From NCBI GenBank assembly GCA_017514975.1, contig JAFWIF010000035.1, forward strand, positions 124,001 through 188,000: DNA of 64,000 bases, written 5' to 3'. Both the position numbers and the translations under genes were made by a program. Position 1 is the stretch's first letter; every line of letters starts with the position of its first letter. The notes under the pieces were generated by a model. That model did not search any database, was not told the origin of the DNA, and saw only the letters and a program-made list of their open reading frames with translations. This document shows positions 10,428 to 47,789 of the stretch, in pieces. This stretch comes from Candidatus Saccharimonadota bacterium (GTDB taxonomy: Bacteria > Patescibacteriota > Saccharimonadia > Saccharimonadales > Saccharimonadaceae).

Positions 10428-10456
10428 TTGACAAAATTACTATTTTTTGATATAAT
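10428..10456 (+). promoter_or_regulatory. Consensus promoter of the first lipoprotein gene
   Basis: TTGACA (10428-10433), a 17-base spacer, then TATAAT (10451-10456). The leader starts with an AGGGC-ttttc-GCCCT hairpin (10465-10479). The Shine-Dalgarno AAGGAGGAAG sits between CTGG and CCAG, which could pair and mask it. Confidence 0.82.
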
Positions 10457-10520: not shown

Positions 10521-11144
10521 ATGAAAAAAATAAAAACAATCTTCGCAACCGCACCGTTAGCCACAGCAGTATTATTGACCGCTTGCGCATCTCCGCAAAA
10601 AGTAGAGCCAACACCAACCAAGACGCCGACTTCCCTTGAGGATCTGATTGAGACAAATATCGCTTCTCCTCTAACGGTCGACGTTATGGGCTACGTCGAT
10701 AGCAATGGAGAGTTCGATTTTTCCGGAATAGCAAACGAGCTAGGTTATAAAACCGTCCACGCAAACGAGTTTGAAGAAGACTACGTACTTGAGCGAAGCG
10801 AACAACGGCCTGTCGGAATAGAAGCTTCTCTCTCCACGTACCCGGAGTTATTTGTCGAAACACCAGACGACTCCAAGAGTCAAACTCTTGCATGTCTCGA
10901 GTTAGTCTTCGACTATCAAAGCGGCAAATCCGAGACCTACCGTATTGCCCCGAAAGACTTTTATGCGGATACAGGCAAGTTCTATAAACTGGAAAACGCC
11001 AATCGCGAAACGCTAGCTACGAATGAAACATTGCAGATGTATGCAAGTATTCTCGAGTCACTACGCAACAATGCAAACATCGACCCGGCAATGCTTTTTA
11101 CGCAAAACTTCTTCAACGAAGAAGTAAAAATGTATCAAGTCTAA
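10521..11144 (+). CDS. Lipoprotein of unknown function (paralogue of the 15.7 kb gene)
   Basis: 207 residues. A lysine-rich start and hydrophobic core end in a lipobox LLTAC (Cys22), so it should be a lipoprotein anchored outside the cytoplasmic membrane. A short Pro/Thr linker follows. The domain has GYVDSNGEFDFSGIANELGY and, later, FYADTGKFYKLENANRETLA. The same two blocks occur in the minus-strand lipoprotein at 15727-16560, so the two are related. The start follows a strong AAGGAGG site. It is monocistronic with its own terminator. It could bind envelope or host components; nothing in the sequence decides. Confidence 0.82.
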   Translation: MKKIKTIFATAPLATAVLLTACASPQKVEPTPTKTPTSLEDLIETNIASPLTVDVMGYVDSNGEFDFSGIANELGYKTVHANEFEEDYVLERSEQRPVGIEASLSTYPELFVETPDDSKSQTLACLELVFDYQSGKSETYRIAPKDFYADTGKFYKLENANRETLATNETLQMYASILESLRNNANIDPAMLFTQNFFNEEVKMYQV

Positions 11145-11156
11145 ATCCGAACACGA

Positions 11157-11180
11157 GACCGTCATTTGACGGTCTTTTTT
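11157..11180 (+). terminator. Intrinsic terminator after the lipoprotein gene
   Basis: GACCGTC-attt-GACGGTC stem followed by TTTTTT, 12 bases beyond the stop codon. Confidence 0.9.
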
Positions 11181-11203
11181 AAACCGCTCTATATATTTTG
11201 TGC

Positions 11204-11209
11204 TAAAAT
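11204..11209 (+). promoter_or_regulatory. -10 box of the wall-hydrolase operon, leaderless arrangement
   Basis: TGC-TAAAAT ends 6 bases before ATG 11216, and no Shine-Dalgarno is present. It should drive the three-gene unit 11216-15613. Confidence 0.55.
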
Positions 11210-11215
11210 AACCAT

Positions 11216-11878
11216 ATGGAGTATGGGAGCCCAATACAAAACTGGTTTGCACGCAACAAACGAAGGCTTATTTTAACTCTTGTCATAGCTGCGATCTCGA
11301 TAAGCGCAATCTTTATTGCTATCTTTATAATCAAAACTCTCAAGTCTTCCGAGCTTTTAATTGTCGTCGCACCAACATCCGCCAAAGTCAAAATCAACGG
11401 CAAAACTTATCAAAACGGCAACTACAAATTCTTTCCAGGAAAAATTGTCGCCGAAATCTCCCACGACGAGCTTGAAACTAAAACCGTCGAACTAGAATTA
11501 AAAGCTAACGAAACACACACTCTCCAAGCCTACCTCGTAGGCAAAGATAACGACTTCAGCTACTACAAAAAATCCTCCGAGGATTTCGAGCTCCTAAAGC
11601 TCGTCGGCGACAAAAATGTCGCCCCCTTTGTCAATAAATGGCAAAAAGATCTGACACTGAGGGATATATTGCCAATATACAACACTAGATACGAACACGG
11701 GCAGCGAGTCATTATACAACTACAAGACGCTTCGAGTAGCAAAAAATGTACCGAAATGTTTTGCATCTTGGCTAGATCAGGCTTCTCAAAAGACAGTGAA
11801 ACTTTCGACGAAACCAATAGAGTGCTGAAGGAAGAAGGTTACGATATATATGATTACCAGATTTTATACGAGGAGTAG
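11216..11878 (+). CDS. Membrane-anchored protein with PEGA-like segment
   Basis: 220 residues. A basic N-terminus (NKRR) precedes one membrane helix, about residues 18-42. The outside part begins with LLIVVAPTSAKVKINGKTYQNG and continues with a K-phi-P-G and ELKANETHTL pattern that resembles PEGA domains, which are small surface beta-sandwiches. The last 100 residues are unassigned and contain a CTEMFC pair. It is first in an operon with the four-module hydrolase, so it may help to place or regulate that enzyme; this is an inference from position. Start chosen from the -10 spacing. Confidence 0.7.
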   Translation: MEYGSPIQNWFARNKRRLILTLVIAAISISAIFIAIFIIKTLKSSELLIVVAPTSAKVKINGKTYQNGNYKFFPGKIVAEISHDELETKTVELELKANETHTLQAYLVGKDNDFSYYKKSSEDFELLKLVGDKNVAPFVNKWQKDLTLRDILPIYNTRYEHGQRVIIQLQDASSSKKCTEMFCILARSGFSKDSETFDETNRVLKEEGYDIYDYQILYEE

Positions 11879-11885
11879 CTCATAC

Positions 11886-14546
11886 ATGCAAGACGCGCGG
11901 AGGAAAAATTATCCATTACACGCGATCGCTTTATTCGCCACCATTATAGCTGTTTTACTTCAACCAATTCAAGTCGTTGCATTAGAAGCAGATGAAGAAC
12001 TAGTCGACCGCTACATCACAGACAAAATTATGTTTTACAAACGTGACGATTGTAGCGACGGCAGCAATAACGCTAAATCATCGTACAGTGGCACTATCTC
12101 TATTAGCGGGAATACATTGAAAGAGAAAATCTGGTCAGGATTACGATCTATGGGGTTTTCCGAAGAACATACTGCCGGCATTATGGGAAACATACAAAAC
12201 GAAAGCACCTTCTATCCCACATTACACGAAGGATTATTCTATCCAAGCGCTTGGCCTTTCGACATCGAAAACAATTCCCACACGTCATATGGTATCGGTC
12301 TCGTTCAATGGTCGTTCGGCAACCGTGTCAATTTTCTTAAATTTGTTCGTGAGCAAGCTCCAGATTTAATACACTACTTCCTCGAACCCCAAAAATATGG
12401 TAGATATGATTTTTTAGATAATATGAAAGGTCACGAAGACGACATTGATAAACTGGTTGCAATCAATCTAGAATATCTCAAAAAGGAATTATTTGTCGAC
12501 GGTAAAATGCCAACAAGCAAAGATGCTAGCTTAGTACTTAGCGCCAATAACACTGTCGAGGCTATGGCAGTAGCATGGTCGTCATATTATGAAGGCTGCG
12601 GTCCTTGCAGAATATCTGGATCTAGCGAACAACGCGAACGCATTAGCGATGCGCTCGCGATTTACAATGAACTAAAAGGAACACCGGTTTCTGCGCCGAA
12701 CTCAGCAACCACATCTACCAATTCGTCAACTATTAATTCACCTACGACCAACACGCAAAGCGCGCAGTCAAACACAACAATAGACACATCTAACATGCAA
12801 CTCGTCTCGGAAATTGAAGCAGTTTCGTTTTATGGTGGCGGCGAAGACGAAAATGGAGCTGGAAATGCTGGAAAAAACAGCGGAAAACGCGACAAAAACG
12901 GCAATTTATATAACAATGGCCAATTAGCTGACGGAATTGCAGCCTTCAACGATTTACCAGCCGGCACTGTCGTATATGTAGAAACCTCTGAAACCGGCGA
13001 GGGCTCATTCGCCCATCAAAAATATTTTATTGTTGCCGATAGTGGCGGCAGCTTGATGCATAAACGCCTCGATATATTCCACGCACCAACTAAAGCCAAC
13101 GAAAACAATGCCGCTCCGTTTGGCTTAGGGAAAAATGCCAAAGTTTATAAAGTAGCCGAAAATGTCACGTGGGACGAATACATGAGCAAGTATCACGACA
13201 AATCTACATTAACTACCGAAACCGTTAATGTAACCTGGCAAAACGGATGGATTGAAAGCGGCATCGATGGCTACATAAGAGACCCTGCCGAAAATAATCA
13301 ACTGGGCATTCCTGTCGATATTTTACACGAACAAAACTATACAACTCAAACCCCAAAAGGAAACGTTGGGCCAAACAAAATCACGCTCCATAATACCCAA
13401 GGAACCAATGCCGCCCTTACGGACACTACCGCGATGGATATATATAGGCCAAGCGTAGCCGGCGGCGACGCCATACCGCCACACTTTACCGTAGATCTCA
13501 AAGAAAAACGCGTTTACCAACATTTTCCAATTACACATCCTGCCGAATCAATCAAGCAGTACGACACTAGCGCCGGCGTTCAAATCGAAATCGTAGGCTA
13601 TTCGACAGAAGCCGACAAAAACAATGATTGGTATCTGTTAAATAATTCGATTTTTGGCGACGCCGAATGGCTTTATCTAGCCAAACTCCTTGTCGGCATT
13701 AGGCAGGCCACGGGAATCCCTCTCATATCCGACGCCACAAAAGTACAATGGAAAACCGAACCGCCTCGCCTTTCCGCCGATGATTTCGAAAACTACCAAG
13801 GCATTCTCGCCCACATGCATACGCCAGCGCCAAACGACCATACTGATACCGATAATATTTGGCAATTCCTCGAACCCGCACTCAAAAAAGTCTCAATCGA
13901 TACAAATACCAACACCGATGCCTGCAATGCTTCCGGTGGCGCATCGTCGATAGCAGCAACCGGAGATCCACTAGCTTTTCTGCAACAATACATAGCAGAC
14001 ACGAATTACTTATATGGCACAAACTACGATATACCAGTCAACGCCAACATCGACGAACCCGCTTCTCCGGCTACTCCAAATGCAGACGGCCCAGTATCCG
14101 CTAGGCCCTTCAATGAGCAAACTTTGTTAAGCTCTTACGGCGCCGAAAATATCTGGAGCGGTGGCTGCTGGCACGGACAATATTGCGGACAATGCGCAGC
14201 CTTTTCTGGTTGGTTTGTATCGATGATGACAAAATATAAAATAAGCAGCGATTCTATGAACGGATACAATGTTACAACAAACGTCGCCAATGCCAACAGC
14301 GAGCTAACAAAAACAAATACAATCAGTAATTACAGTGTTTTTTCGACGTCTGACGGTGGAGTCGGACATACGGGCGTTGTTCTCTGGCAAGATTCCGACG
14401 GAGATTGGATTATAGCAGAAAACAACTGGCATACACACAAATTAGGGCTACGCAAGGTTAGCGAGGCGAAGATGCAAAGCGAAGGTGCAACATATGTAGA
14501 CTTATCAAACGGCCTCAAATTAGATCATCTAAATACAAGGTATTAG
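11886..14546 (+). CDS. Secreted multi-module peptidoglycan hydrolase (lysozyme, 3D-like, amidase, CHAP)
   Basis: 886 residues. A basic start and hydrophobic stretch (about 8-33) form a signal peptide or anchor. Modules I can see: (1) about 73-265, a phage-tail-lysozyme type domain with GIMGNIQNES, whose Glu106 is the catalytic candidate, and YGIGLVQW; (2) about 340-425, a 3D/double-psi-barrel-like domain with GTVVYVET, ADSGG and LDIF; (3) about 495-670, an amidase_2 domain with zinc-ligand candidates in ITLHNT, AHMH and NDH; (4) about 745-880, a CHAP-like domain with GQCAAFSGW (Cys770) and GHTGVV (His828). A Ser/Thr/Asn linker joins 1 and 2. ATG 11886 was chosen for the AGGAG site 10 bases upstream; ATG 11850 overlaps the previous gene. 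Together the modules could cut glycan strands and stem peptides of its own wall or a host's. Confidence 0.85.
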   Translation: MQDARRKNYPLHAIALFATIIAVLLQPIQVVALEADEELVDRYITDKIMFYKRDDCSDGSNNAKSSYSGTISISGNTLKEKIWSGLRSMGFSEEHTAGIMGNIQNESTFYPTLHEGLFYPSAWPFDIENNSHTSYGIGLVQWSFGNRVNFLKFVREQAPDLIHYFLEPQKYGRYDFLDNMKGHEDDIDKLVAINLEYLKKELFVDGKMPTSKDASLVLSANNTVEAMAVAWSSYYEGCGPCRISGSSEQRERISDALAIYNELKGTPVSAPNSATTSTNSSTINSPTTNTQSAQSNTTIDTSNMQLVSEIEAVSFYGGGEDENGAGNAGKNSGKRDKNGNLYNNGQLADGIAAFNDLPAGTVVYVETSETGEGSFAHQKYFIVADSGGSLMHKRLDIFHAPTKANENNAAPFGLGKNAKVYKVAENVTWDEYMSKYHDKSTLTTETVNVTWQNGWIESGIDGYIRDPAENNQLGIPVDILHEQNYTTQTPKGNVGPNKITLHNTQGTNAALTDTTAMDIYRPSVAGGDAIPPHFTVDLKEKRVYQHFPITHPAESIKQYDTSAGVQIEIVGYSTEADKNNDWYLLNNSIFGDAEWLYLAKLLVGIRQATGIPLISDATKVQWKTEPPRLSADDFENYQGILAHMHTPAPNDHTDTDNIWQFLEPALKKVSIDTNTNTDACNASGGASSIAATGDPLAFLQQYIADTNYLYGTNYDIPVNANIDEPASPATPNADGPVSARPFNEQTLLSSYGAENIWSGGCWHGQYCGQCAAFSGWFVSMMTKYKISSDSMNGYNVTTNVANANSELTKTNTISNYSVFSTSDGGVGHTGVVLWQDSDGDWIIAENNWHTHKLGLRKVSEAKMQSEGATYVDLSNGLKLDHLNTRY

Positions 14547-14557
14547 AAGGAATTCTT

Positions 14558-15613
14558 ATGCAATTAAACACTTATCAATCACGGATTAAAAAATTAACTA
14601 TAACAATTGCTATCGTGAGCGCATTTGCTTGCTTAATAATCTATCTGCTATCATTAAGCACGCACAAGACGACAAGCAATTCTCGTCTGCAGATCAACAA
14701 CGCCAAACAATATGCTACGACACTACACGACGCAACATTAATCGATATCGAGACTATATTATACGACGCAGCCTCCTTAAATTCATCGTTTCTACAAAAA
14801 ATTCCGACTACGGGGGCAGTCGTTCGCGATAATAGTTATAGTGAAAAAAAACATACTGCAAGTAACGACGTTGTCGTAACATTCTTAATAGACATAGAAC
14901 CTTTAGGGCAAACCTATAGAGCTACCTATAGGTCAACCGCTAACGATCCAACAAGCCACCATTTCGTACGCATTCAGTGTCCTACAAAAAACGAAATAAT
15001 TTACAAAGAATTTGTTTGTACTGAATTAGACGACGATCGATTCACGAGCCCAACTAGCTACCCAATCTCAATACGCGGCTTCCAATATCTCGTATCGCAA
15101 CATAACTTATCAGAAACCACAGCCACTTCTGTATCGAACACTATCTCCACTTTCATAAAAAACGCATACCCAGCAACCACACAAATACACTTGACCAACT
15201 ATATTTTTTCTCAAGAGACCTCGACGCATACATTTGATTTGTCCACTGATACACAAAAACTCTTTTACGCTACGTTAAAGACGAGTGACGAATATTCGTA
15301 CCAATTAACAATAGTCGACAATTTACGCAAAAATATTTTTCAAGTCGATACATCTATTTACGATCGTATATACAAAAACCCAGCTTCTCTCGCCACAAGG
15401 CACCTCCCATATCAAGATAAACTCGAAGACGGAACAGTTTTCACTGTTAAGCAAAAAGCCGAAAGCTACGAAATATCCACAACTTCTTGCGGCAATCAAT
15501 CGATAAAAGACAATGTACTCAAAGCAACTCATGTCTGGCTCGAATCTATAAATTATAGACCCACTGATTTCGAATTCATAATCCCAGACCATTGCGACGC
15601 CGAAGCGCACTAA
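14558..15613 (+). CDS. Membrane-anchored extracytoplasmic protein, unknown function
   Basis: 351 residues; not recognised. A membrane helix at about 12-34 (ITIAIVSAFACLIIYLLSLS) anchors a large Ser/Thr/Tyr-rich outside domain with strand-like segments and a few Cys (QCPTK, FVCTE, TSCGN, DHCD) that could form disulfides. It lies 11 bases after the hydrolase gene behind a GAAGGAA site, so it is in the same operon. It is probably an export, anchoring or substrate partner of the hydrolase; that is only a guess from position. Confidence 0.75.
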   Translation: MQLNTYQSRIKKLTITIAIVSAFACLIIYLLSLSTHKTTSNSRLQINNAKQYATTLHDATLIDIETILYDAASLNSSFLQKIPTTGAVVRDNSYSEKKHTASNDVVVTFLIDIEPLGQTYRATYRSTANDPTSHHFVRIQCPTKNEIIYKEFVCTELDDDRFTSPTSYPISIRGFQYLVSQHNLSETTATSVSNTISTFIKNAYPATTQIHLTNYIFSQETSTHTFDLSTDTQKLFYATLKTSDEYSYQLTIVDNLRKNIFQVDTSIYDRIYKNPASLATRHLPYQDKLEDGTVFTVKQKAESYEISTTSCGNQSIKDNVLKATHVWLESINYRPTDFEFIIPDHCDAEAH

Positions 15614-15666
15614 CGTTAGGCTATAGTACCTTTTAAAGATACTGTAGGCTATTAAACAAATAAAAA

Positions 15667-15703
15667 ATCGCCTATTACGACGCAAGGCGTAAATATAGGC
15701 GAT
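15667..15703. terminator. Bidirectional terminator between convergent genes
   Basis: ATCGCCTAT (15667-15675) pairs with ATAGGCGAT (15695-15703), and a nested TACG/CGTA stem lies inside. T-rich flanks lie on both sides. It separates the plus-strand operon ending at 15613 from the minus-strand lipoprotein gene ending at 15727. Confidence 0.8.
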
Positions 15704-15726
15704 TTATTAAATTGAAGCAGGAATAA

Positions 15727-16560
15727 TCAATAGACGTATCTTACCTCATTACCAGTATTCGATACAACCATATATTCAGGCAAGATATTGCCGAATGGAT
15801 CAGAATTAACGCTCTTTGGTATATTTTCCAACAACACAGCAAAAGCTATAAGCTCCACATAACTCACTGACCAAGCTTTATTAAATAATTTATATTTTGA
15901 CTCGTCCGGTGCATAATGCTTAAAATAACTGCCGCTATACGACTTAGGCTGATAAGTGTCTGAATCCATAAATAGCACGCTAACACTTGCTAAAGGAGTC
16001 CGGCCAACAGGACTAGTTTCTCCTCTTATGTCCTCTTCTATAGACAACCAAACTAAAGTATCGTCAATCCTTCTTTCAAATGACGACGAATCTCGTACGT
16101 CTTCATACCAGCTACCATCCTTAACGTCAAAGCCTGCATCAGTCGCCATGCCATAAAGGTCGACATTGCCATCATCATCGATATAGTCATCAATGTTGAT
16201 AGAGCAAGTCAACGAGCTATCGCCAAACTGATACGTATAGACTAAAGGAGCATACTCGTCAGAATAACTTGAAGCAATTTCAGATGCGCTTGTCGTCATC
16301 GTATTAGTTGTCGCTAGATCGGTAGCAGTAGGAGTGATAGTGGTAGTGGTAGTGGTAGTGGTAGCGACTGTAGTGGCCGTAGTAGTAGCTTCCCGTGTCG
16401 TATTTAAAGCTTCTTCTGATCTCGATTCCATCAATAATACATCATTGTCATCGGATATTGCGCTCGCGCTAGGACTGCAAGCGGCTAAGTTAGCCGAACT
16501 AACTCCAATAGTAGCGAGAATAATAACGCCCACACACTTCGTTAATAATTTCTTCTTCAT
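15727..16560 (-). CDS. Lipoprotein with poly-threonine linker (paralogue of the 10.5 kb gene)
   Basis: 277 residues. A KKKLLTK start and hydrophobic core end in lipobox NLAAC (Cys28). Residues about 50-95 are a Thr/Ala-rich linker with a run of eight Thr, a likely extended surface stalk. The C-terminal domain has YIDDDGNVDLYGMATDAGFDV and, later, HYAPDESKYKLFNKAW, matching the two conserved blocks of the lipoprotein at 10521. It ends in VSNTGNEVRYVY. The start has a GGAGGT site 10 bases upstream. The two paralogues flank the hydrolase operon on opposite strands, which suggests a shared envelope role. Confidence 0.82.
   Translation of the reverse strand: MKKKLLTKCVGVIILATIGVSSANLAACSPSASAISDDNDVLLMESRSEEALNTTREATTTATTVATTTTTTTTITPTATDLATTNTMTTSASEIASSYSDEYAPLVYTYQFGDSSLTCSINIDDYIDDDGNVDLYGMATDAGFDVKDGSWYEDVRDSSSFERRIDDTLVWLSIEEDIRGETSPVGRTPLASVSVLFMDSDTYQPKSYSGSYFKHYAPDESKYKLFNKAWSVSYVELIAFAVLLENIPKSVNSDPFGNILPEYMVVSNTGNEVRYVY
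16338..16361 (-). repeat. Hexanucleotide microsatellite in the Thr linker
   Basis: Four perfect TAGTGG units in tandem (plus-strand reading) encode Thr pairs on the minus strand. Because the unit is 6 bp, slippage would change linker length without shifting the frame. Confidence 0.8.
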
Positions 16561-16751: not shown

Positions 16752-16949
16752 ACCTCCTGTTCGGAAAGTTTTTTGCTTTTAAGCGCTAAATATCTAAAAG
16801 CCAATCGCAAATCATCAAAAAACCGCGATTAACAAAAAATGCAAAGGCCAAACAAGCCAATAAGACTAAAAGGCCAAAACACTAAAAGCGCAATACTAAA
16901 AAACTCTCGAATGCAACTTGAAACCAACAGGATCAAAGAGGAGGTACGC

Positions 16950-17225
16950 ATGACAACAAAACAGCAGAACACCGAAGAGACAAGAGAAGAAAAATTCTTT
17001 GATTATGACGATGCCTACGATTACGACTATGATTATGATTGCGATTACAATCGCCAGCATAAGTCCATTCTTGAAAGGACGCGGCGTGATAAAATCATGG
17101 ATTGGGTCAAAATCATCACAGTTGTAGGGGGGGTCATTGTGACCGGTTTTCTCATTGTGCACGGCACAAGCAAGATCACAAAATGGGGCATCCGCTCCAT
17201 AATCGCATGGGCAGAACGTAAATAG
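16950..17225 (+). CDS. Small membrane protein with Asp/Tyr repeat
   Basis: 91 residues. The N-terminal part is charged and contains a DYDDAYDYDYDYDCDY run. A basic stretch (LERTRRDK) leads to one membrane helix (about 54-76, VKIITVVGGVIVTGFLIV), then a basic tail. I chose ATG 16950 because GAGGAGGT lies 6 bases upstream. The acidic-aromatic repeat could bind cations or a partner; the function is unknown. A strong terminator follows. Confidence 0.75.
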   Translation: MTTKQQNTEETREEKFFDYDDAYDYDYDYDCDYNRQHKSILERTRRDKIMDWVKIITVVGGVIVTGFLIVHGTSKITKWGIRSIIAWAERK

Positions 17226-40445: not shown

Positions 40446-42521
40446 TTAGGTCTTTTCCTTCTTCAACTTAATCGCGAACCCACCCCCAGGCGCCATATAC
40501 AATTCAATTCTATCCCCACGCCTCACAATACGCTCCTCAATAACGTAGCCCAGTTGATGATCGCGATAATGCGCATCTTCCGAATCGCGATAAATCGTCG
40601 CCACGTAATCCATCCGCGGCTCAATAAAATCAAGATACAATTCGACTTTACGCCCCTCCTCGTTCGTCACCCCACCAACATACCACTCATCACCTTGCCA
40701 TGCCTGACGCGCTACTACGAAGCTCCGCCCAATCTCCCCCAAAAGCGGCACCGTCTTCTCCCATCTCACCGGCACATCCCGAATAAAGGCGAACAGATCT
40801 GGAAAGTTTTCAAGATAAAGCTGTGGTCGGTCTGCCGCCATCTGCATCGAAGAATAAATCGTCACATAATACGCCAATTGACGCACAATCGTCGAGGCAA
40901 TACGCTTTGAAAAATTACCCACATCAAAAATGCCACTCGTATAATCCATCCCACCCGCCAATAAACGCGTAAACGGCAAGAAACACGCATGCGAAGGCAC
41001 CAATGCTCCACCCTCATATTCTTGCCCGCGCGCACCTTCTCTCGTCATCAAATTCGGCCAAGTCCGCTCAATCCCCGTTCCCTTAATCGGTTCATGCACG
41101 TCAAGCATAATTTGATACTCCGCCGCCAATTCCAATGCATACTGATAATGCAATACCCCTAGCTGGGAATGATGAAATTCTCTTTGCCCATTTATCATCA
41201 TCTTCGACCCCGCATATCCCGACTTAATATACCTCACGCCTCGCTCGCGCAGAAAAGCATACGCATCTTCAATCTGCTCTTCATAGTTATCGATAAAACC
41301 AACCGTCTCGTGATGTCCAACAATCTCCACGCCATTTTCACGCGCGTAGTTCGCAACCGCACGCATATCAAAATCAGGTGTCGCTTCGGTAAATTTATTA
41401 TACCGACCATTTTCCAGCCAATCCCCCTCCCAACCGTCATTCCACCCCTCAATCAGCAGCGCTGGTATTCCTAGCTTTGCACAGGCGTCAATATACTGCT
41501 TCGCGTGTTCTGTCGTTGCACCGTGTCGCTCCCCAGGCGCCCAAGTCCACTCGCCAACATACATCGCCCACCAAATCCCCAAAAACTTCGTCGGCGATAC
41601 CCACGAAAAGTCATCTCTCGGCGGCTCATTCAGGTTCAACAACATCCGATTTACAACCAAATCTACCGCCGAATTACCAACCATAATCACACGCCAGGGA
41701 GTAGAGAAGGGCAACTCAACATACGCACGCATCCCATCAGCCAACGGCGTAATATCCGAACGCAACGACGCGCCGTCAAGCTTCAAAGTCATCGATCCGT
41801 AGTTATACAACGCCGCTTCATGCAAAGAAATATAGTGACCAGTTGGACATTGAATCGTTAAAGGCGTGTGTACCGACTCATGCAACTCGTGTACTCTCTT
41901 ATTTGTGTAATCATATTCGTATCTATCTGGCTGATACGCAGGAATGCTCCACGATTGCCCATTCACATCTACCGTAAACTCCGTCAACTCATCTGCAACA
42001 ATCATCTTGTCCATCGCATTCTGCACCGGCACCTCGTAGCGAAACGCCACACCGTCGTCAAAGACCCTAAACCGCAGAGTCAATAATCGATTTGGCTTAC
42101 CAGTTTCCTCTAAATAAATCGCCGTTTCATTATAGTGATTGCGAATCACGCGCTGCTCCCCCCAATACGCCTCCCATGTCTCATCAATACTCTTCGAGTA
42201 TGCTCGAATCAGCCCAAAATCATCCGTCATCGGACGATCATCTTTAACCGCGATTCCCAACTTTGAGCGCCGCACAATCACCTGTTCGTCTTTTTTCACG
42301 AAATAACAAATCTGCCCCTTATCCAACATAAACGTCGCCACTAGTCTTCCGTTCGGCGACTTAATCTCAAACACCGCTTCCCGACGCGGTTTTTTTGCAA
42401 ACACAGACGAAAGCCCGCTGTTTTTGATGTTCTTTTTTACATTCAAAATCTTACCGGCGCCATTTCCGCCACCATTTTGACTATGTCCAAACCTCAATTT
42501 TTCCAGTCCAAATAGACCCAT
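40446..42521 (-). CDS. GH97-family alpha-glycosidase
   Basis: 691 residues. The N-terminal beta-sandwich starts FEIKSPNGRLVATFMLDKGQICYFV. The barrel carries GH97 landmarks: LGIWWAMYVGEWTW, LLIEGWNDGWEGDW, the VGHHE stretch, GYIKSGYAG-like YIKSGYAGSK, and MLDVHEPIKGTGIERTWPNLMTREGARGQE (quoted in blocks). The family hydrolyses alpha-glucosides or alpha-galactosides. No signal peptide is visible: about 45 Gly/Lys-rich residues precede the first domain, so it may be cytoplasmic or exported in another way. It is large for a reduced genome and stands alone between accessory genes, which suggests transfer. ATG 42521 has only a weak GGTGG site. Confidence 0.9.
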   Translation of the reverse strand: MGLFGLEKLRFGHSQNGGGNGAGKILNVKKNIKNSGLSSVFAKKPRREAVFEIKSPNGRLVATFMLDKGQICYFVKKDEQVIVRRSKLGIAVKDDRPMTDDFGLIRAYSKSIDETWEAYWGEQRVIRNHYNETAIYLEETGKPNRLLTLRFRVFDDGVAFRYEVPVQNAMDKMIVADELTEFTVDVNGQSWSIPAYQPDRYEYDYTNKRVHELHESVHTPLTIQCPTGHYISLHEAALYNYGSMTLKLDGASLRSDITPLADGMRAYVELPFSTPWRVIMVGNSAVDLVVNRMLLNLNEPPRDDFSWVSPTKFLGIWWAMYVGEWTWAPGERHGATTEHAKQYIDACAKLGIPALLIEGWNDGWEGDWLENGRYNKFTEATPDFDMRAVANYARENGVEIVGHHETVGFIDNYEEQIEDAYAFLRERGVRYIKSGYAGSKMMINGQREFHHSQLGVLHYQYALELAAEYQIMLDVHEPIKGTGIERTWPNLMTREGARGQEYEGGALVPSHACFLPFTRLLAGGMDYTSGIFDVGNFSKRIASTIVRQLAYYVTIYSSMQMAADRPQLYLENFPDLFAFIRDVPVRWEKTVPLLGEIGRSFVVARQAWQGDEWYVGGVTNEEGRKVELYLDFIEPRMDYVATIYRDSEDAHYRDHQLGYVIEERIVRRGDRIELYMAPGGGFAIKLKKEKT

Positions 42522-46859: not shown

Positions 46860-47789
46860 ATGTACAAAGAAGAAAAATTTGACCATGTTTACATGATACT
46901 GAATGGGCCTTCAGTATTTAAAATGATGCTATCTATGGAGTCAGCCGCTGCGCCTCGCCCGCCAGTAGTTAATTTTACTTTACGCGATGAACTTACTGGC
47001 AAAAAGAGGTTAGTGAATGCCGTAATCGAGGGTATGCATAATGCTCGTTTCGGTTGGCGCCTTGAAGGTTTTCTCGTAGAGAAGTCGAGTAGTCCACTAT
47101 TCAAGGCAATGTATTTCACAGAGGATACGCGCATCGGCCGCATGGAAGTTTCGGAGAAGCTTTCAGATTTCACCTTTACGGAGGCCTGGCTTCTGGAGCA
47201 CTCTTCTGAGTTGCAGGACGATGGACTTGGAATCGAGCGCATTTACACAGGAACTACTACAGCCAAGATGCGTCAGGATCATCCGCTCATCTGGTTTTGG
47301 GCCAAGGCGAACATGAAGCGTCAGGCTTTATCGTTCCGTGGTCGTAAGGTAGCCTCGTTTGTCTCGTTCAAAGACTTCATTAGCGGCCAGAAGCTTCAGG
47401 CCGATGAGGATGATGTGGCGGAGAAATTATCTTTCATGTATCTGGCCTCTAATTATAATGGTTCAGTTAATATGCTAGTGGAAGATGATTTGTCTCAGCC
47501 GTTCCTGCACGGTATCAAGGTCGACCCGTCTCTCTGGACTTGGGGCTCACCTTCTCAGCGAGAGCCGAAGGAAAGCCTTCCGGAATACTTGGACAGGTAT
47601 AGCCGCGACTTAGAAAAATATAGTCGTGAACTTAACTTGGACGCACTTACAGCCACTATTAAGAATTTTATGCCAAGCAAAAAAGCTAGACTTGACCGAG
47701 CATTCCACGAAGCTGTCAACAATAGGAATAGCGGACAGAGTGAAGGATTTATTAGTTTTGAAGAGTTCAACAAGCTCAAACAAAACTAA
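46860..47789 (+). CDS. Cytoplasmic protein of unknown function with foreign codon use
   Basis: 309 residues; not recognised. No signal or membrane segment. The N-terminal half looks mixed alpha/beta, the middle is basic (KANMKRQALSFRGRKVASF) and the last 100 residues are charged and helical. Codon choice (many CGT, CAG, GTT, TTT and G/T third positions) is unlike the C-ending bias of housekeeping neighbours. It has its own promoter, folded leader and terminator. Transfer or a distinct expression class could explain the codon use. Confidence 0.75.
   Translation: MYKEEKFDHVYMILNGPSVFKMMLSMESAAAPRPPVVNFTLRDELTGKKRLVNAVIEGMHNARFGWRLEGFLVEKSSSPLFKAMYFTEDTRIGRMEVSEKLSDFTFTEAWLLEHSSELQDDGLGIERIYTGTTTAKMRQDHPLIWFWAKANMKRQALSFRGRKVASFVSFKDFISGQKLQADEDDVAEKLSFMYLASNYNGSVNMLVEDDLSQPFLHGIKVDPSLWTWGSPSQREPKESLPEYLDRYSRDLEKYSRELNLDALTATIKNFMPSKKARLDRAFHEAVNNRNSGQSEGFISFEEFNKLKQN

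Follow-up and report, generated by a model that had tools for sequence, protein, structure and literature searches.

The 64,000-nucleotide stretch of DNA analysed here (the window) encodes a secreted, multi-module peptidoglycan hydrolase that resembles PrgK and VirB1 and is the central member of a three-gene cassette standing on its own, and from its sequence we are inclined to regard it as an enzyme that opens the wall of a host bacterium. Sequence and predicted fold supply its modules and their catalytic residues, its operon, a gene triad conserved among relatives, a constant N-terminus, kinship with T4SS-linked paralogues and fast divergence. It is not yet understood how ultrasmall episymbionts pass the wall of a host or what determines which hosts they can use, and variable modules coupled to a fixed N-terminus and fixed partners offer a specific candidate answer to each question that can be tested. 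The cassette may be a tool by which Saccharibacteria open the walls of different hosts.

The source organism is tiny and probably parasitic, and its genome assembly comprises 885,703 bases in 39 contigs. The initial annotation had linked it to the Saccharibacteria, and a single query with the amidase module agreed, as the four closest named relatives were Candidatus Saccharibacteria MAGs from the rumen or from ruminants. Checking of open reading frames placed three genes on the forward strand: gene A (11216-11878), the hydrolase gene (11886-14546, or from an earlier ATG at 11850, giving 898 instead of 886 amino acids) and gene B (14558-15613). An 886-residue protein between two anchored neighbours had been described previously; its coordinates and frame were correct, and both neighbours do look anchored. 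Protein A is signal-anchored, with a transmembrane helix at about residue 16 and a PEGA-like outer domain, and protein B is signal-anchored with a small alpha/beta outer domain; each is a conserved partner in related cassettes. The hydrolase begins with a signal peptide (about the first 33 residues, 11886-11984, forward strand), read from the sequence and found at the same start in intact relatives, that looks cleavable, anchoring being seen only for A and B.

That the hydrolase belongs to an operon of its own, as had been proposed, is upheld by signals on both sides. On the forward strand, the lipoprotein gene upstream ends in an intrinsic terminator (11155-11180; fold of -14.3 kcal/mol, z -4.83) that divides it from the cassette; this terminator was found by sequence reading and folding, and is absent from the output of a consensus scan. 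An extended -10-like element read from the sequence, TGCTAAAAT (11201-11209, forward strand), lies 6 nucleotides 5' of the ATG of A, whose start may be of the leaderless type. On the 3' side an inverted repeat, also read from the sequence (15661-15709), occupies the space between B and a convergent lipoprotein gene and is a probable terminator. G+C content drops to 40-45% across the cassette stretch. Upstream of the first lipoprotein gene lies a sigma-70-type promoter (10428-10456) with a perfect 12/12 match and a TG before the -10. Further downstream, a weak NCBIfam match to a TIGR-Tas endonuclease (16839-17225; 16 bits against 100) was taken as chance.

Just past the signal peptide, residues 39-51 (12000-12038, forward strand) carry a constant motif, LVDRYITDKIMFY, with the family consensus D.FA.NNI.FY.P..C; a profile of the N-terminal motif matched the window hydrolase at E=3.7e-11 and nothing else in its own genome. 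The four modules of the initial annotation follow, all on the forward strand. Its lysozyme reading proved strong, and its CHAP and Amidase_2 readings were borne out, the latter by profile and residues; its 3D reading fell below the cut-off. Judged from these comparisons, the lysozyme, amidase and CHAP modules stand well, and the 3D module, the weakest of the four, is probable. The phage tail lysozyme domain (12123-12671) matched PF18013 (Phage_lysozyme2) at E=1.6e-20, with 74.2 bits against a curated cut-off of 28.2. Its family profile found phi29 gp13 at E=5e-15, and its predicted fold aligned with that of gp13 at Z=14.6 over 144 residues with 24% identity. The catalytic Glu is in place, as Glu106 aligns with gp13 Glu45 and does not vary across 26 sequences. 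The phage protein also has an M23 peptidase and is located at the phage tail tip.

The 3D (MltA/YuiC-like) module (12750-13205) was delimited from a sub-threshold Pfam match (PF06725, 1.8e-4, 22.1 bits, just below the cut-off of 23.8) and an alignment of eight sequences, in which the second and third Asp are kept (Asp385 and Asp396) and the first is not conserved; the third Asp is the catalytic one in 3D domains (PMC4499186). Bd3285 of Bdellovibrio, an MltA-like 3D-domain enzyme, is secreted by the predator and cuts the prey wall (PMC10127604), although it is a lipoprotein with a single 3D domain from a diderm predator, and the analogy is functional only. For the Amidase_2-type module (13206-13967), a Pfam scan of the window protein gave no direct match to PF01510, and the corresponding match in a 54%-identical relative (L031) reached 1.7e-4 and 22.4 bits against a cut-off of 26. 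A profile built from relatives found XlyA at E=6e-5, and actinophage LysA endolysins aligned to the module at E 7e-12. His502, Glu568, His643/645, His652 and Asp654 are kept in an alignment with two of these LysA proteins, and are presumed zinc ligands and catalytic residues.

The CHAP module (13968-14543) matched PF05257 at 1.7e-3 with 19.2 bits, below the cut-off of 26; its predicted fold aligned with a CHAP endolysin structure at Z 8.2, and Cys770 and His828 are invariant in nine sequences. Because the full-length structure model is poor (pLDDT 57) outside the lysozyme and CHAP modules, fold comparison extended mainly over residues 76-265 and 742-878, and the fold evidence is confined to those two modules. 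For both of them the hydrolase folds foreseen in the initial annotation were obtained, and the residues it had named (Glu106, Cys770/His828 and the amidase zinc ligands) are in place in the alignments.

Several features relate this protein to PrgK, the VirB1-like enzyme of the pCF10 T4SS of Enterococcus. Both gather several wall-hydrolase domains in one extracellular protein, including a muramidase of the phage-tail-lysozyme kind and a C-terminal CHAP domain, and both have an anchored partner, which for PrgK is PrgL (PMC11323569). As in VirB1/PrgK-type enzymes, a glycan-cutting domain (lysozyme) is joined to a peptidase domain (CHAP), and there is homology to a T4SS-linked hydrolase through the shared lysozyme, N-terminal motif and A-type partner. 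The window gene is not within a T4SS locus beside VirB4, whereas its paralogues in relatives are. PrgK also differs in having a cytoplasmic domain and a transmembrane anchor and in sitting in a conjugation operon, whereas the window protein combines a signal peptide and the constant N-terminal motif with 3D and amidase modules and belongs to a standalone cassette.

Two of the three PrgK domains, LytM and CHAP, are inactive in vitro and regulatory (PMC11323569), and a similar reading could be proposed for the window protein, in which most modules would be inactive and would bind peptidoglycan. The missing first Asp of its 3D module would fit, as would the amidases of several relatives (L040, L041, L054 and L079 in our alignment), which lack the first zinc-ligand His and are for that reason probably inactive. 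The lysozyme, amidase and CHAP modules of the window protein nevertheless retain all the catalytic residues examined, and we consider it very improbable that the protein is mostly a binding or regulatory one. Given the lost zinc ligand in relatives and the inactive domains of PrgK, not every module need be active in an enzyme that opens a host wall.

Homologues of the hydrolase were found in 51 of 100 related genomes, and in 43 of 44 from the same genus. Pfam scans of some 40 family members revealed that the modules are swapped: Phage_lysozyme2 or Glucosaminidase; GDSL-like or 3D; Amidase_2, M23, VanY or M15; and CHAP, C39 or NlpC/P60. Among these members, only the window protein showed the order lysozyme-3D-amidase-CHAP. 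Multi-module breadth is thus typical of the genus, contrary to the earlier view that it is unusual in so small a genome. What stays constant is D.FA.NNI.FY.P just past the signal peptide, common to nearly all intact family members. Used alone, a 32-position profile of this motif retrieved cassettes that the module search had missed and that carry other modules (Glucosaminidase, M23, C39, VanY, M15 and NlpC/P60). All strong matches that were fetched and read are large secreted family proteins adjoining A, B or both, and most of the proteins retrieved bear recognisable wall-hydrolase modules, often of other kinds; one weak match (L117, E=0.006) was a false positive on reading. Since the motif by itself finds further cassettes with the same neighbours, it checks the definition of the family independently, and its short sequence serves as an easy search tag for gathering enzymes of this type.

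Polymorphic toxin systems likewise join a constant N-terminus to exchangeable effector modules. The resemblance of the cassette family, with its constant N-terminus and swapped domains, raises the alternative that the hydrolase is a lytic weapon of the bacteriocin kind, aimed at rival Saccharibacteria or at other bacteria sharing the host, with flanking lipoproteins as protection. The cassette in the window is flanked by two predicted lipoprotein genes (10521-11144 and 15727-16560), whose products have a distant mutual similarity (20.7% identity, E 2e-4), and a related lipoprotein adjoins the cassette in two relatives (L069 and L070). This lipoprotein family occurs, however, at only 3 of about 50 loci examined, too few for the lipoproteins to be general immunity partners; in the window, moreover, one lipoprotein gene is terminated ahead of the cassette and the other is convergent. 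Unlike variable immunity proteins, A and B are constant partners, and unlike the effectors of polymorphic toxins the modules are of wall-hydrolase type and are distributed over the length of the protein. Antagonism therefore appears improbable to us.

Gene neighbourhoods were read at 55 loci, and two settings emerged. In the first, PrgI, a VirB4-like ATPase and a large membrane protein with a CHAP domain come ahead of the hydrolase and an A-type PEGA protein, and dnaN and a RecF-like gene are nearby; these loci match the Patescibacterial T4SS (PMC12102498). In the second, the hydrolase, A and B stand alone outside the T4SS locus, as in the window, where the hydrolase gene has no T4SS genes beside it and sits upstream of fusA. 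The A-hydrolase-B triad recurs in about 30 cassettes within one genus. A table of 42 genomes of the genus, which omits one genome (G015) whose copy is T4SS-linked by its coordinates, lists a T4SS-linked copy in 31, a copy elsewhere in 35 (an upper bound, since some assemblies are fragmented) and both in 24. Outside the genus, nearly all hydrolase matches are T4SS-linked. Depending on the species, standalone cassettes are found next to rpsL/rpsG/fusA, behind rpsI, ahead of secY or next to rplJ, and since these sites are all ribosomal or translation-linked operons they may give high expression.

The partners follow the same division. Protein A has some 36 standalone homologues, and Pfam matched PEGA in a T4SS-linked A paralogue (locus L061). 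On a tree of A proteins the T4SS-linked and standalone groups split almost cleanly, with 3 label changes against 13.1 in shuffles. For B, the predicted model (pLDDT 72) gave weak matches to assorted unrelated folds, with the VirB8 homologues CagV (Z 4.7) and OrfG (Z 3.9) among them, and a profile search with B gave no match; with fold scores weak and mixed and no profile match, an identification with VirB8 was dropped. In the source genome itself, pilin-like genes are present, and dnaN and VirB4 are both absent from the assembly. Because dnaN, the neighbour of VirB4 in relatives, is missing as well, the claim that the source genome has lost its T4SS was dropped. Elsewhere in the window a protein of 309 amino acids without a Pfam match (46860-47789) is about 28% identical to part of the multi-TM fam8 protein that opens the T4SS loci of relatives.

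The hydrolases diverge far more than their genomic background. Median identity within the genus was 93% for EF-G, 92% for VirB4, 55% for the T4SS-linked hydrolase and, for copies lying elsewhere, 30% (23% when taken over the longer protein), a contrast that is large even though the sample is non-random, the loci having been picked by hydrolase matches. Relaxed selection or exchange among unsampled strains could also fit this quick divergence.

These data bear on the main rival to host-wall opening, namely that the enzyme opens the peptidoglycan of the producer itself, either for T4SS or pilus assembly, the usual role of VirB1, or for growth and division. VirB1-type enzymes work on the wall of the producer (PMC12102498), the anchors of A and B lie in the membrane of the producer, and the source genome encodes two transpeptidases of its own, which indicates that the cell has a wall. 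The 24 genomes with a copy elsewhere and a T4SS-linked copy, however, already hold an enzyme able to fill the VirB1 role, and a housekeeping enzyme would be expected to keep its modules between species at about 93% EF-G identity. The source genome also encodes better candidates for division (G000:C23, L122 and L123), a LysM-LysM-CHAP protein whose gene adjoins that of an Obg-type GTPase and a PcsB-like coiled-coil CHAP protein whose gene adjoins that of a CtpA-type protease, both of which are likely to be housekeeping wall hydrolases. We therefore consider action on the producer's own wall a serious reading, albeit a rather unlikely one.

Action on a host wall, the reading that we favour, draws on four lines of evidence that were beyond the reach of the initial annotation, which had raised this role beside one in the cell's own division. 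The first is that the family adjoins VirB4 in the T4SS locus and has counterparts reported to be essential: the T4SS is reported to be essential in Ca. Southlakia epibionticum (PMC10633639), and homologues of peptidase and lysozyme encoded immediately after virB4 in this organism are reported to be essential for epibiotic growth (PMC12102498, citing PMC10633639). By their description, these homologues are like the T4SS-linked paralogues in position and domain type, whereas the window gene lies in a standalone cassette and has other modules. The second is the swapping of modules and the fast divergence of the cassettes, and the third the separate PcsB-like and LysM-CHAP hydrolases, which would serve the cell's own wall. 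The fourth is that the nearest phage amidases are endolysins of actinobacterial phages, the LysA proteins of Brevibacterium (AGM group) and Streptomyces (Urza and Celia) phages, matches that represent about three independent phage lineages. Their amidases are 30-33% identical to that of the window protein and keep the active-site residues, although they are phage lysis proteins without its other modules. A phage origin of the entire gene was considered and rejected, as phage kin were found for the lysozyme and amidase only and one scan of viral contigs, sensitive to close relatives only, returned no relative of the whole gene. Scanning the whole protein against named genomes gave zero matches.

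We infer that the hydrolase would be exported by Sec and that its conserved mature N-terminus would dock it on its two anchored partners or else on the envelope complex of the T4SS, so that the modules work together at the contact site. The lysozyme, perhaps with the 3D module, would cut glycan strands, the amidase would strip stem peptides and CHAP would cleave peptides or cross-bridges. The likely substrate would be the wall of the bacterium that carries the Saccharibacterium, probably an actinobacterium, and opening it would let a secretion apparatus or pili through or would free nutrients. Changing the modules would fit the enzyme to different host walls. More tentatively, rumen Saccharibacteria may hold a T4SS-derived, polymorphic wall-opening system made of a docking motif, two membrane partners and exchangeable modules at several ribosomal-operon sites, whose modules would set which walls can be breached and hence the host range; this wider proposal is possible but somewhat unlikely. 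VirB1/PrgK enzymes with several domains are already known, as is the Patescibacterial T4SS, and in the open-access literature, outside which many journals lie, we met no description of cassettes that stand alone and exchange modules behind a constant N-terminus.

Several further observations were made during the reading of loci. At three loci (L050, L056 and L068) the large T4SS membrane protein (fam2) accompanies the hydrolase with VirB4 absent nearby, and these are possible intermediates between T4SS loci and standalone cassettes. In L084 (G022:C9:1-12000), what appears to be the T4SS-type hydrolase end and A is followed directly by a standalone cassette upstream of rpsL. One family hydrolase gene (L053:9447-12623, G006:C9) is divided among three reading frames, contains stops and is masked over one stretch, and is either a broken gene or an assembly fault. 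Despite the small genome, the window encodes a member of glycoside hydrolase family 97 (40446-42521). Lastly, a gene in L031 (9938-11029), with equivalents in L032 to L034, encodes two TM segments, a VanY carboxypeptidase domain and a region that matches T4SS_pilin below threshold, and is followed by a second A-like protein; its product is possibly a pilin carrying a wall hydrolase.
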